Made by a program: the position numbers and the translations under genes. A model generated the notes under the pieces. It saw only the letters and a list, made by a program, of their open reading frames with translations, was not told where the DNA came from and made no database searches. From an uncultured bacterium (GTDB lineage: Bacteria; Patescibacteriota; Gracilibacteria; Absconditabacterales; Absconditicoccaceae), in the NCBI GenBank assembly GCA_947169045.1, contig CAMVOC010000008.1, positions 1 through 38,402 on the forward strand: a DNA stretch of 38,402 nt. The letters run 5' to 3'. Positions within the stretch are counted from its first letter, which is position 1; each line of letters begins with the position of its first letter. Below are positions 27,180 to 34,273 of this stretch, one piece after another.

Positions 27180-27854
27180 ATGATGAAAACAGAAAACGTC
27201 AAAGTGATAGGCATGATGCCTCAAAAACAAATAGAACGACAAATAATATCAAACGAAGAAACTTGGAAAGCTGCTAAAGAGAAATATTCTTTAGAAAAAT
27301 TAGCTGACCAATACCCAGGCGCTAAAACAGTATTAAATAGCGAGAATCAGGGGTATGATTTCAAGAAAATCGATACGATTATTCGGACGAAGTTAAATGA
27401 AAGAATTGACGAAGAGTTGCATAATCGTACAAAAGATGCGGAGAAAGACCCGTATTACATGAACGCAAGACGCCTTGCAAATTATCTACTCAAACAGCTC
27501 CCTCTCTTGAGGAGTGAAGTAGAAAGATGTTCGATGGAAATAGGTCTAGACGCAGAAACGATTTTAAAAGTCAGAATTCATAGTTTGGTATTACCATCCG
27601 AAAAAGAGACAGATGAAGAAGTGTGGAAGCATCCGAAATTATGGGAACATCCGAAGTGGACGAATAAATATGACGCGGAAATAAGTCGATGGGGCTTTTA
27701 TCAAGAAGCTTCAAAAACTTCAAGTACAGAAAAAGGAAAACTTGAGGGGGATAAAAGCTTTCCGGACCTCTCTTATTGTCGAGGGCCAGTAAAATTTAGA
27801 AAAAAACCTAAAATTAGTGATCTTTCTGATGGGAAAATGACTCCCAAAAGATAG
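27180..27854 (+). CDS. Unknown protein, paralogue 1 (SRWGFY/GDKS family)
   Basis: A protein of 224 residues, soluble, charged, with no membrane helix or signal. It shares with the gene at 28102 a weakly similar N-terminal helical part (WKAAKEKYSLEKLADQYPGAKTVL against LKVANERYGLTELATQFPDVKRFL) and a strongly conserved C-terminal block: ISRWGFY followed 20-25 residues later by EGDKSFPDLSYCRG. I do not recognise the family. There are no in-frame UGA codons among about nine glycines, and Gly is often GGC or GGG. Promoter, long leader, 3' UTR and terminator are shared in design with paralogue 2. The middle (EVERCSMEIGLDAETILKVRIHSL) could be a helical DNA- or protein-binding region, but this is a guess. 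Confidence 0.7.
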   Translation: MMKTENVKVIGMMPQKQIERQIISNEETWKAAKEKYSLEKLADQYPGAKTVLNSENQGYDFKKIDTIIRTKLNERIDEELHNRTKDAEKDPYYMNARRLANYLLKQLPLLRSEVERCSMEIGLDAETILKVRIHSLVLPSEKETDEEVWKHPKLWEHPKWTNKYDAEISRWGFYQEASKTSSTEKGKLEGDKSFPDLSYCRGPVKFRKKPKISDLSDGKMTPKR

Positions 27855-27897: not shown

Positions 27898-27930
27898 AGA
27901 GGAGATCAGTATGCTGACCTCCTTTTTTTA
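27898..27930 (+). terminator. Terminator of paralogue 1, near-identical to that of paralogue 2
   Basis: AGGAGATCAG and CTGACCTCCT pair around a TATG loop, followed by seven T's. Together with the upstream 3' UTR (from 27881) it repeats almost exactly at 28720-28765. Confidence 0.8.
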
Positions 27931-28101: not shown

Positions 28102-28722
28102 ATGGAAATCCAGATTATTGCAAATATTGAAGACTTAAAAGTCGCTAACGAACGTTATGGTTTGACAGAACTTGCCACTCAATTCCCAGATGTGAAAAGG
28201 TTTTTACAGGGGAAAGAAAAATTGATCAAAGCGAAACAGCAGGGAGTACTGTGTGAAATGAATCAACTGATTCGAAAAAAAGCGAACGCACCTAATCATA
28301 CAGACAAGAACTGGATAGAATATCATTGCTTCGACGCTAACACCTTCGCAAGTGAGCTGATAGAGGAATATCCTAAGGCGCGAGAGATGGCAAAGAAGAT
28401 TTCGACAGAAGTACATCCAGAAACAGTGGTGAAATGTATGATTCATGCGTTGTCGTTGACAGAATTTGGGTATTTATGGATACATCCAAATAGTTCGACA
28501 AAGTGTAGCGAAACAGTAAGTAGATGGGGTTTCTATCGGACAGATTCGCGAGATACGCTACGTTTAGATCAAATAGAAGTACAAGGGGATAAAAGCTTGC
28601 CGGATTTCGGCTATTTCCGAGAGAAAATACTACGGAGTGGAAGGCCCCAATGTGAAATTCCTCCTTATGGAGGGGGAGATCCAGAGGAGTTTCTAAAAAG
28701 TGCTTTAGATTATGGCATCTAA
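28102..28722 (+). CDS. Unknown protein, paralogue 2 (SRWGFY/GDKS family)
   Basis: A protein of 206 residues, related to the gene at 27180. Conserved points: NERYGLTELATQFPDVKRF near the N-terminus, a central HPETVVKCMIHALSL matching paralogue 1's LDAETILKVRIHSLVL, then VSRWGFYR and QGDKSLPDFGYFRE. The C-terminus differs (PPYGGGDPEEFLKSALDYGI). A good Shine-Dalgarno (AAGGAG, 7-8 nt before ATG) is present, unlike most genes here. No in-frame UGA among about thirteen glycines. The tandem copies with duplicated regulatory signals indicate a gene duplication that included promoter and terminator. Family unknown; lineage-specific or acquired gene are both possible. Confidence 0.72.
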   Translation: MEIQIIANIEDLKVANERYGLTELATQFPDVKRFLQGKEKLIKAKQQGVLCEMNQLIRKKANAPNHTDKNWIEYHCFDANTFASELIEEYPKAREMAKKISTEVHPETVVKCMIHALSLTEFGYLWIHPNSSTKCSETVSRWGFYRTDSRDTLRLDQIEVQGDKSLPDFGYFREKILRSGRPQCEIPPYGGGDPEEFLKSALDYGI

Positions 28723-28736
28723 TAACCACAATATTA

Positions 28737-28766
28737 AGAGGAGATCAGTATGCTGACCTCCTTTTT
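28737..28766 (+). terminator. Terminator of paralogue 2
   Basis: AGGAGATCAG/CTGACCTCCT hairpin with TATG loop and T run. The preceding 3' UTR (28725-28742) is the segment complementary to the small RNA at 2.3 kb. Confidence 0.8.
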
Positions 28767-30839: not shown

Positions 30840-31595
30840 TTACCCATTAATACTAGTCCAAAAGACTCTTGCTGCCTCACTTTCAGCTTTCTTTTTACTT
30901 TCTCCGGTTCCTTCTGCTACTTTGACTCCTTCTCCCCAAAGTTCTGCCTTAAAATGTAAGTTCCCTTCCTGGATAATGCGATATTCTGGCAACTGTTTCG
31001 TCTTTTTCAAAAAATATTCCTGAACCAAGGATTTATAGCTTTTCACAGGGCGTTTCAAAGCTTCTTGCATTTGAGGATAGAGATACGTTTCAATGAATTT
31101 CATCACTTCTCCTTCCCCGAAGGCGCAGTACATTCGTCCAAGTAGCGCTTCAAAACTATCTCCTAAAATCGTATCTTTCTCGCGTCAACCAGCTTTTTCT
31201 TCTCCTTTACTGATAAAAATCATCTGATCTAATCCAATATGTTTCGCTACTTCAGCCAAGGTTTCCTCCCTCACGAGCGCAATTTTATACAAACTCATCG
31301 TTGCCTCGTTCATCTCTGGATAATTAACAAACAACAGCTTACAAACGACCGATCCGAGAACCCCGTCTCCCAAAAATTCTAAACGTTCATTATGCGAGGT
31401 AATAACTTTAAAATCTGCAGCATAACTCTTATGGATAAACGCACACAAAAAAAGATCTAATAAATCGCCTTTGTAGGACACGGACGTGTCAGACGGATAC
31501 ATGGCTTCAATATCGACCCCCAATTTCGAAATAAAATCCAAGAGAACTCCTTGCTTTTCGCGGACTTCATCAGGGATATTTAACACCGTTTCCAT
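30840..31595 (-). CDS. rnc: Ribonuclease III
   Basis: Double-strand-specific endoribonuclease that processes rRNA precursors and sRNA-mRNA duplexes, 251 residues. Signature HNERLEFLGDGVLGSVV near residue 68 carries catalytic Glu and Asp; the second acidic pair is in LGDSFEALLGRMY near residue 145. The C-terminal dsRNA-binding domain has SYKSLVQEYFLKKTKQLPEYRI and ends GESKKKAESEAARVFW. One UGA-Gly (EEKAGG-REKD) joins the two parts. Its start codon is about 24 nt past the terminator stem of the last cassette of the small-RNA array, so some rnc transcripts may be read-through products of that RNA. An AAAAAGCTGG copy overlaps it (31189-31198). Confidence 0.94.
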
Positions 31596-31610
31596 AAATA
31601 TGCTAAAGAA

Positions 31611-31768
31611 AAATAAAACCCCTAGAATATAAAACTCCAGGGGAAAAAATCAATAAATAATCTAACATTTCATATATAATAAGGAGGATTAAGAATATTG
31701 CACGTGTGACAACGGAAGACTATCTATTGACTTGATAAAAACAAAATTATCAAAACACAAATATACAA
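31611..31768 (-). ncRNA. Small-RNA cassette 8 of the array (next to rnc)
   Basis: Promoter TTGATT (31797-31802), 16 nt, TATAGA (31775-31780). Terminator stem CCCCT/AGGGG (31619-31623 with 31639-31643) followed by a U-rich run on the minus strand. Length about 158 nt. It contains a CU-rich stretch complementary to 31681-31689 (AAGGAGGAT), which would pair with Shine-Dalgarno-like sequence. rnc begins 24 nt beyond the stem. Confidence 0.6.
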
Positions 31769-31826
31769 TAACTATCTATAGGGATTAGGAAAGCAAAATC
31801 AAGAGATAATGCTCATCTAGAGATAT

Positions 31827-32030
31827 AAAAAATCTCCTAGAGAACCTCCAGGAGACAAAAGTTTTACGTATTTGTTTAAATTTAAGTACTTTTTAAAATT
31901 TTAATTCTACGAGGTAATTCAATTTTCATAAAGTTTGTTGTATAGGTTTTGTTTTCTTAGGATGTATTCATACGCAGTCTTCCATTAGTGAAAAAAACTG
32001 TTATTAAGCGTGATTAATCATAATCACTAA
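31827..32030 (-). ncRNA. Small-RNA cassette 7 of the array
   Basis: Promoter TTGACT (32059-32064), 16 nt, TATATA (32037-32042). Terminator TCTCCT/AGGAGA (31833-31838 with 31850-31855) plus U run. About 204 nt, the longest cassette. A 15-codon frame starting ATG 31933-31931 region (MKIELPRRIKILKST) is present but unproven. Confidence 0.6.
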
Positions 32031-32097
32031 CCTCAATATATAACAAAAAGCCATAAAAAGTCAAGAGATAAAAAGCTGGCTTCAAATCCAGTAAAAT

Positions 32098-32191
32098 AAA
32101 AAACCCTCAGAAGAAATACTTCCAAGGGAATCTCGAATAATATAAAATTAACTATGAACATAAAAGGATAAATAATTAAATCTATCTTCAA
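32098..32191 (-). ncRNA. Small-RNA cassette 6 of the array
   Basis: Promoter TTGAAT (32220-32225), 16 nt, TATCTT (32198-32203). Terminator has CCCT/AGGG and GAAG/CTTC steps (32104-32128), then a U run. About 94 nt. Terminator loop sequence is shared with cassettes 2 and 4. Confidence 0.6.
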
Positions 32192-32256
32192 ATAAAGAAG
32201 ATAGCGAAAAGCTATAAAAATTCAAGAGATAAAAAACTGACTTCAAACCCAGTAAA

Positions 32257-32339
32257 ATAAAATCCCCTAGGAAAACATAGGGGATCAAAGGACATAAATT
32301 TTTTAAAGCTTTATGAAGTATGAAAAAGCAAAACAACTC
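32257..32339 (-). ncRNA. Small-RNA cassette 5 of the array
   Basis: Weaker promoter TTGCAT (32368-32373), 16 nt, TAAGGT (32346-32351). Strong terminator ATCCCCTA/TAGGGGAT (32262-32269 with 32278-32285) followed by a U-rich run. About 83 nt. Confidence 0.5.
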
Positions 32340-32399
32340 ATCTCCACCTTAGCTAAAAAGCATCAAAATGCAAGACAATTAGCACAAAATCTCTCAAAT

Positions 32400-32527
32400 A
32401 AAAAATCTCTCAAAAGAAATACCTTCGAGAGACAACTTCAATAGTTACGTGTTGAAATAAATAAATTTTGTAAAATAAACAATAGATTAAAGAATGTATA
32501 ATAACCCTAAAAAAAGTTATTAACTAG
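32400..32527 (-). ncRNA. Small-RNA cassette 4 of the array
   Basis: Promoter TTGACT (32556-32561), 16 nt, TATATC (32534-32539). Terminator TCTCTC/GAGAGA (32406-32411 with 32427-32432) plus U run. About 128 nt. Confidence 0.6.
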
Positions 32528-32604
32528 TCAAATGATATAACGAAAAGAGATAAAAAGTCAAGAGATTCTGCTTTTTTTTAGCTGTTGTACTGCCTCAAAA
32601 CGTT

Positions 32605-32729
32605 AAAAAATCCCTCAAACCTCAAAAGTTCAAGGGATAAATAAGGGTTAATAATAAAAACAATTTATAATTAATAAGAGATAAACATTTATAAACAAAT
32701 AAACAAAAAACAATTGATTATAAATGAAT
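32605..32729 (-). ncRNA. Small-RNA cassette 3 of the array
   Basis: Promoter TTGACT (32758-32763), 16 nt, TAATGT (32736-32741). Terminator TCCCT/AGGGA (32611-32615 with 32633-32637, extended by AA/TT) plus six U's. About 125 nt. Confidence 0.6.
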
Positions 32730-32796
32730 GCCATAACATTACACAAAAATAATAAAAAGTCAAGAGATAAAAAGCTGGCTTAAAACCTAGTAAAAA

Positions 32797-32888
32797 TAAA
32801 AAATCCCCAGAAGAAATACTCCCGGGGAAAAATTTGTGATATAAATACAAATAGGAAGGTAAATATTATTATGTTTAAACAACCCAAC
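32797..32888 (-). ncRNA. Small-RNA cassette 2 of the array
   Basis: Promoter TTGATT (32917-32922), 16 nt, TATCTC (32895-32900). Terminator CCCC/GGGG (32805-32808 with 32824-32827) plus U run. About 92 nt. Contains a CU-rich stretch opposite 32853-32860 (AGGAAGGT). Confidence 0.55.
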
Positions 32889-32947
32889 TGCTAAGAGATA
32901 CGGAAAAGCCATTAAAAATCAAGAGAATATCCACCAAAAGACATAAA

Positions 32948-33014
32948 ATAAAAAGCCCTCTGAAACAGAGGACTTCTAAAAAATAATAAAAAAATGAAAA
33001 AAAGAAATTCAAGC
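32948..33014 (-). ncRNA. Small-RNA cassette 1 of the array (next to murG)
   Basis: Promoter TTGACT (33043-33048), 16 nt, TATATT (33021-33026). Terminator GCCCTCTG/CAGAGGAC (32955-32962 with 32966-32973) plus U run. About 67 nt and very U rich. It lies 64 nt from the divergent murG start. Confidence 0.6.
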
Positions 33015-33112
33015 AAATAAAATATAATCAAAAAACAACAAAAGTCAAGAGATAGTTTTCAGCTTAAAACCTTATAACTTGAAACATTTCAAAAAAACAG
33101 TACACTACAACT

Positions 33113-34273
33113 ATGAAAACAAGAGACAAAACACTCCCGACAAACCCTACGGGAAAGATCAATATTGCAATGGCAGGAGGTGGTACGTGAGGACACGTGT
33201 TTCCTATTCGTTCGCTCTTGCAAACCCTTTCATCCAGCTCAACATATGCCGAGCAGATAGGGACAATCTATCGATTTTGATCGAAAGACTCGTTAGAACA
33301 GCAGACGTGTAACGCACTTCAAGACAGCTCGTCAATCAAGATTTCATTTTTGCCAATTATCTCAGGGAAACTACGTAGAGAACTGAGTTTAAAAGCGATC
33401 TTTCGCAATGGTTCAGATTTTTTTAAACTGTTGACAGGGACGGTGCAGTCTTGTCATTATCTCAGAAAATATCAGATCAATACGGTGTTTTGCAAGGGGG
33501 GGTATGTCGCTTTGCCTGTCGTAGTAGCAGCAAAACTACTCAAAAAAAAGCTGATTCTCCACGAAAGTGATACACATCCAGGATTAGTGAATCACATTGC
33601 ATCTCGTCGAACCAACGTGAATTTTACCGCATTCCCAAACGTATTGCCTAATGCGCAAGTCGTAGGACAACTCTTATCCGATGATTTATTCGCTTCATCA
33701 AATGCAAAGCATCATACATCCCAGCTTCTCCATTGAGAAATATCAGCTTCCAAGCGCCCAATACTCTTCATTATGGCGGGATCGCAAGGAGCTAAAACCT
33801 TGTACGAAGTAGTTGCAGAAATCCTTCATCGCAACCAGAAAATCACGCAAGCTTTCCAGATCGTCATTACCCTCGGACAACTCAATCAAGAATTAAGAGC
33901 ATCATTTGAAAATATCCAGGATTCTCATATTACAATCTGCGATTTCCTCTCTCAATCTCAAATGGGAGAAATCTATCAGCAGGCAGATCTGTGTATTACG
34001 CGCGGAGGGACAACGTCGCTGGCAGAACAGAAACTCTTTAATATCAAGTCAATCATTGTGCCGCTTCCACGGACGCATGACCAAGCAGATAATGCAAAGC
34101 GATATGCTGAACATCATGCAGATATTGTGCTGGATCAGAATGCTCCTTCGTTCGCCTGAGATCTAGAGCAAGCGCTTCTAGCACATACTCAATATCACAA
34201 AAAAGCCCCTTCCACCAGCCCTCTGAAACAAATTCAAGAGACGAAAAAGCTGGTCATTGAGGCGATATTATAA
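33113..34273 (+). CDS. murG: UDP-N-acetylglucosamine transferase MurG
   Basis: Glycosyltransferase (GT28) that adds GlcNAc to lipid I to form lipid II on the inner face of the membrane; 386 residues. The N-terminal glycine loop IAMAGGGTGGHVFP near residue 18 includes a UGA-Gly at 33188-33190. NTVFCKGGYVALPVVVAAKLL near residue 125, LILHESDTHPGLVN near 148, IMAGSQGAKTLYEV near 220, and the UDP-binding LCITRGGTTSLAEQKLF near 300 with IIVPLPRTHDQADNAKR follow the family order. Start ATG 33113 gives a 17-residue lead before the loop; no Shine-Dalgarno. No other mur gene lies nearby. Confidence 0.94.

Follow-up and report, generated by a model that had tools for sequence, protein, structure and literature searches.

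A lineage-specific array of eight promoter-terminator units, most likely small-RNA genes, between rnc and murG in an uncultured Absconditabacterales bacterium

Terminators and promoters in the gap between rnc and murG

We analysed an entire contig (C8; 38,402 bases, hereafter the window) from the 873-kb, 13-contig genome of an uncultured bacterium of the Absconditabacterales, in which the gene for RNase III, rnc, and the divergently oriented murG are separated by 1.5 kb (31596-33112). With open reading frames (ORFs) translated using genetic code 25, the 310 kb examined contain no longer stretch devoid of ORFs of at least 100 amino acids than this gap, in a genome sample that is ~92% covered by ORFs. 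Within it lie eight cassettes, all on the minus strand and numbered here from the rnc side, each composed of a promoter or promoter-like site, a short body and an intrinsic terminator (Table 1).

The eight intrinsic terminators occupy positions 31619-32977. A simple terminator scan of the gap returned ten sites, ten out of ten on the minus strand (shuffled sequences: 0.7 +/- 0.7), and a stricter scan found eight in the 1.36 kb of the array versus 26 in 271.8 kb (0.1/kb) of contigs C1 and C6, which represent 31% of the genome and supplied the background rates throughout; no run of three or more terminators within 350 nt was found by the stricter scan in these two contigs. The hairpins resemble each other to a degree that eight of 31 other terminators reached in 0 of 5,000 draws, bearing out the relatedness proposed in the initial annotation of this locus, and they form an array-specific family centred on GAGTATTTCTTC; the 13-mer GAAGTATTTCTTC has exact occurrences only in the array. 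When a hairpin model was searched against the whole genome, the scope of all model searches, and against the genus, array members scored far above all other sites, the training members matching by construction.

The promoters were located with a matrix trained on 23 promoters of the genome's general, or house, type, all from outside the window. At a cut-off score of 12, the matrix gave eight minus-strand matches in 1.49 kb, compared with ~0.1 expected (background 0.077/kb), comprising seven cassette promoters (P1-P3 and P5-P8), which alternate with the terminators, and the promoter of rnc itself (P0). Terminator scans, promoter matrix and ORF gap agree on the eight gene-free minus-strand units that had been described initially. 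The sequence shared around the -35 boxes, at first taken for an array feature, instead reflects the house style, as does the 16-nt spacing: ATCTCTTGACTTTTTA with up to two mismatches occurs at 45 sites genome-wide (control, 4), mostly before ordinary genes and with a 16-nt spacing to TATAAT, and the CTCTTGACTTTTTAT context combined with this spacing is the genome's general promoter, which alone does not distinguish the array.

Table 1. Features of the array and its flanking genes; positions are those of the window, and the numbers between the promoter boxes are spacings in nt.
Feature	Position	Strand	Boxes or hairpin sequence	Matrix score	Remarks
murG	33113..34273	+			Divergent upstream neighbour, outside the array
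P8, promoter of cassette 8	33021..33048	-	TTGACT-16-TATATT	23.5	
T8, terminator of cassette 8	32951..32977	-			Terminator scans; body ~33014-32978, U-rich, 73% T
P7, promoter of cassette 7	32895..32922	-	TTGATT-16-TATCTC	15.9	
T7, terminator of cassette 7	32804..32828	-	Loop GAGTATTTCTTC		Terminator scans, hairpin model; body ~32894-32829
Junction linker and P6, promoter of cassette 6	32736..32803	-	TTGACT-16-TAATGT	23.8	Block in common with 32037-32103 and 32198-32261
T6, terminator of cassette 6	32611..32637	-			Terminator scans; body ~32736-32639
P5, promoter of cassette 5	32534..32561	-	TTGACT-16-TATATC	23.3	
T5, terminator of cassette 5	32406..32432	-	Loop GGTATTTC		Terminator scans, hairpin model; body ~32534-32434
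P4, weak promoter-like site of cassette 4	32346..32373	-	TTGCAT-16-TAAGGT	7.0	Model R2 retrieves this junction
T4, terminator of cassette 4	32262..32285	-			Terminator scans; body ~32344-32287
Junction linker and P3, promoter of cassette 3	32198..32261	-	TTGAAT-16-TATCTT	14.5	
T3, terminator of cassette 3	32104..32128	-	GAAGTATTTCTTC		Terminator scans, hairpin model; body ~32198-32129
Junction linker and P2, promoter of cassette 2	32037..32103	-	TTGACT-16-TATATA	24.7	
T2, terminator of cassette 2	31833..31855	-			Terminator scans, hairpin model; body ~32037-31857, at 181 nt longer than any other
P1, promoter of cassette 1	31775..31802	-	TTGATT-16-TATAGA	12.9	
Body of cassette 1	31644..31775	-			15-bp helix, z -2.9, equalled by 3 of 200 shuffles
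T1, terminator of cassette 1	31619..31643	-			Terminator scans, hairpin model; end 24 nt ahead of the rnc start codon
P0, promoter of rnc	31626..31653	-	TTGATT-16-TATATT	16.1	Overlaps T1, -10 box inside the T1 hairpin
rnc (RNase III)	30840..31595	-			Downstream neighbour, outside the array

One promoter-like site on the plus strand lies inside cassette 1 (31722-31750, score 11.5) and would yield a transcript running antisense through the array. On the murG side, a promoter-like site (33079-33113; TTGAAA-16-TACACT) ends ~7 nt ahead of the murG ATG, which suggests that the murG mRNA is leaderless. The genome is rated 93% complete, yet the 16S rRNA gene (RF00177) was not found in the assembly.

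Paralogous junctions and unrelated bodies

Similarity between the cassettes drops sharply at the -10 box. Upstream of it, two features of the junctions, which run from one terminator through a linker to the next promoter, are specific to the array, namely the linker CTGGnTTTGAAGCCAG common to junctions M2, M3 and M6, and a shared spacer of the GGCTTTTcG type; the -10 boxes, poorer than those of ordinary genes, are likewise peculiar to the array. Linker-promoter comparisons among M2, M3 and M6 reach z values of 12-18, and their linkers differ by 3 to 5 substitutions and small length changes in ~36-40 nt (~8-12% diverged, ~90% identical). Searched against its own genome, the junction model R2 ranked all eight array junctions at the top, training sequences included; M8, which was absent from the training set, was recovered with an E value of 0.0025 compared with 0.0075 for the best ordinary site elsewhere in the genome.

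For the bodies, in contrast, 27 of 28 pairwise local alignments were indistinguishable from those of shuffled sequences, with a z of 2.2 for the best pair and scores of 13-24, where >110 would be expected at 10% divergence and >50 at 20%. By these comparisons, the terminator-linker-promoter junctions are paralogous and the transcribed bodies unrelated. The divergence of the transcribed parts had been recognised from the outset, but the accompanying proposal of plain tandem duplication followed by divergence fails, because linkers only ~8-12% diverged would predict body scores above 110. Linkers are ~90% identical yet bodies look random, so the bodies were not copied together with the junctions under equal drift. 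Either the expression signals are under far stronger constraint or homogenised, or the junctions were copied without the bodies.

No reading frame common to the cassettes was found. Hydrophobic frames in the T-rich bodies, such as those of 28 amino acids in cassette 6 and 12 amino acids in cassette 4, could point to genes for tiny, possibly leaderless peptides, but several bodies have no frame at all and T-rich sequence would yield such frames by chance, making this explanation very improbable.

A pattern parallel to that of the array is present elsewhere in the window. ORFs 27180-27854 and 28102-28722 are tandem paralogues of an unknown family, with 30% amino acid identity and no Pfam match; the hairpins of their terminators (27900-27923 and 28739-28762) are identical and lie in a 52-nt block that is nearly so, and their promoters are similar, so that here, too, the signals appear alike and the coding parts diverged.

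This pair is relevant to the possibility that the array is a non-functional expansion, in which recombination copied a local terminator-promoter junction several times within a tolerant gap and the copies were homogenised, their transcripts, if any, being idle. Retention of the 52-nt terminator block at 30% protein identity indicates that such signals may remain similar even when they have no special role, and the unrelated bodies between ~90% identical linkers, the weak -10 boxes, the weak P4 and the lineage-specific occurrence of the array (see below) are all compatible with idle copies. However, the junctions alone were kept, not random stretches, and a house -35 box in seven of the eight promoters, 16-nt spacing in all of them and terminators that all fold, within a sample ~92% covered by ORFs, speak against idle sequence; on balance, we consider such an expansion possible but not probable.

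Another reading, which we regard as rather unlikely, is a modular island of RNA cassettes, where one constant unit of terminator, linker and promoter, preserved or propagated by local recombination, would carry exchangeable, unrelated bodies. The single orientation and the constant junctions between variable inserts would likewise suit a non-coding, integron-like cassette array with the junction as the recombination site. Such an array is highly improbable, given that attC cores (GTTRRRY/RYYYAAC) are absent from the junctions, the minus strand holding two chance GTTRRRY matches inside bodies and no RYYYAAC, and that the surroundings of the array showed no recombinase gene.

Distribution of the array and comparison with known systems

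A scan of a genome collection with an RNase III alignment identified relatives, including a Candidatus Absconditabacteria metagenome-assembled genome (MAG), UBA3291 and other MAGs; with the RNase III protein alone as the query, a scan of the collection gave no match. The covariance and synteny comparison proposed in the initial annotation found no array in relatives. In same-genus genomes, none was present in the rnc and murG neighbourhoods: rnc is flanked by different genes, in several cases with a LytR-CpsA-Psr-like gene upstream, and is not adjoined by murG. The significance first attached to the location beside rnc is not supported. Covariance models of terminator and junction detected no second array in the genus or family, and across 49 family genomes the junction model matched nothing but isolated, weak sites elsewhere than at this locus; the best two are ordinary gene-to-gene junctions from a terminator to the next promoter. 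BLASTN of the whole array against the genus and its own genome returned only promoter-like or low-complexity pieces and no relative of any body, and no match was found in phage records. The array is thus lineage-specific, with no like arrangement in the rest of the sampled genome or in its relatives.

These comparisons also bear on a role for the locus as an elaborate rnc upstream region, where tandem promoters and attenuators would set rnc transcription and cassette 1 would be the rnc leader, its long helix a possible RNase III substrate. In E. coli, rnc is autoregulated by RNase III. All units point at rnc, T1 terminates just before its start codon, the 15-bp helix of body 1 has a z of -2.9, and the whole 180-nt leader reaches -5.2. 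But the latter value counts the terminator in, and the former is unremarkable among eight bodies; moreover, rnc has its own promoter inside T1, eight successive terminators would block rather than tune the distal promoters, and relatives lack a region of this kind at rnc. We consider this role distinctly unlikely.

In agreement with the initial impression that no described RNA family is involved, Rfam searches at gathering and relaxed thresholds gave no match at the gathering score, and weak matches lay far below it, two of them to NsiR1 (RF02399; 17.8 and 19.9 bits against a gathering score of 39). We found no description of small RNAs of Absconditabacteria in the literature searched.

The closest parallels are tandem arrays of bacterial small RNA (sRNA) genes. 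In heterocystous cyanobacteria, NsiR1 genes are arrayed ahead of hetF, and Nostoc sp. PCC 7120 has 12 of them (PMC9045159); as here, short RNA genes are repeated head to tail just upstream of a protein gene, each with its own promoter (one of them weak in our array), but the NsiR1 RNA copies are identical or nearly so, whereas here, in a different phylum, only the promoter-terminator junctions are alike. LhrC1-5 of Listeria monocytogenes are five homologous sRNA genes with their own promoters and with CU-rich regions directed at Shine-Dalgarno (SD) sites (PMC5880928). The present cassettes, likewise a set of sRNA-like genes with individual promoters, have unrelated bodies in a genome that avoids SD sites, and CU-rich pairing of the LhrC kind does not apply. 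The Cia-dependent csRNAs of Streptococcus comprise 2-6 siblings, some in tandem, with similar promoters, homologous transcribed regions and a known regulator (PMC4211561); our array also has tandem sibling units under similar promoters, but neither homologous transcribed regions nor a known regulator was found. The body comparisons thus set the array apart from sibling sRNA families of the LhrC, csRNA and Qrr type, which are defined by homologous bodies. OmrA/OmrB of E. coli, also encoded in tandem, are conserved at their ends and differ in the middle (PMC4211561), in contrast to the cassettes, which share the terminator at most and differ at their 5' ends. Judged from sequence, the layout is that of known tandem sRNA arrays such as NsiR1 and LhrC, with the conservation reversed.

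Small RNAs as the probable products

We interpret the locus, with a probability of about one half, as a tandem array, particular to this lineage, of eight small noncoding units on one strand, each transcribed and terminated separately; the promoter-terminator array itself is real and unusual, and its units are most likely small-RNA genes. Each unit would be read from its own house-type sigma-70 promoter, combining a strong extended -35 region, a 16-nt spacer and a weak -10 box, into an RNA of ~70-215 nt whose A+U-rich body is unique, and would be closed by its own intrinsic terminator, insulating it from the other units and from rnc. The junctions descend from shared ancestral sequences, and their similarity would be maintained through selection on expression, through homogenisation at the locus or through both; the bodies may have diverged past recognition or never been shared. 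An orphan promoter followed by an intrinsic terminator, with no ORF, is the arrangement expected of a bacterial sRNA gene, and it recurs along the array; in a genome whose sample is ~92% ORF-covered, one would not expect eight promoters and as many terminators to be retained unused. That the units are transcribed, and that their products are small RNAs, is what we infer from these features.

Several observations weigh against this interpretation. Of the promoters originally ascribed to the eight units, seven are strong, whereas P4 (TTGCAT) has the lowest score, and the -10 boxes are poor, with matrix scores of -5.2 to +1.8 in the other seven cassettes compared with a training median of 8.4. 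Seven of the eight bodies are no more structured than shuffled sequences. Among five related hairpins, 10 of 10 pairs are kept, 7 of these changed on both sides, which counts in favour of the array, but such covariation is expected in any aligned hairpin set and shows that the hairpins are intact, nothing more. The array is not conserved in any other genome. Finally, target prediction limited to start regions (a subset of 100 starts, with 12 shuffles per body) revealed no excess complementarity or pairing energy for the bodies.

The possible mode of action is narrowed by translation initiation in this genome. Across contigs C1, C6 and C8, AGGA occurs at 5 of 234 start regions versus 28 of 234 control windows, and AGGAG at 4 versus 11. 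SD motifs are therefore avoided before genes, and initiation, on these counts, must be largely SD-independent; in line with this, a published list of organisms that are SD-scarce and lack the CCUCC core includes two Absconditabacteria (PMC10783764). With SD sites avoided, SD masking by the array RNAs is unlikely, and the early suggestion that CU-rich stretches pair with such sites finds no support in either these counts or the pairing energies. Hfq was not found in the genome. Most simply, the products would be trans-acting, base-pairing RNAs with separate targets, operating without SD masking and without Hfq.

Conserved signals combined with unrelated bodies are the reverse of the conservation seen in known sRNA arrays. 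If the cassettes did form a modular island, a very small genome would accommodate an expanding set of regulatory RNAs whose action involves neither Hfq nor Shine-Dalgarno targets. The array would let one ask how sRNA repertoires arise, and what sRNAs act on where there is no Shine-Dalgarno sequence to mask.
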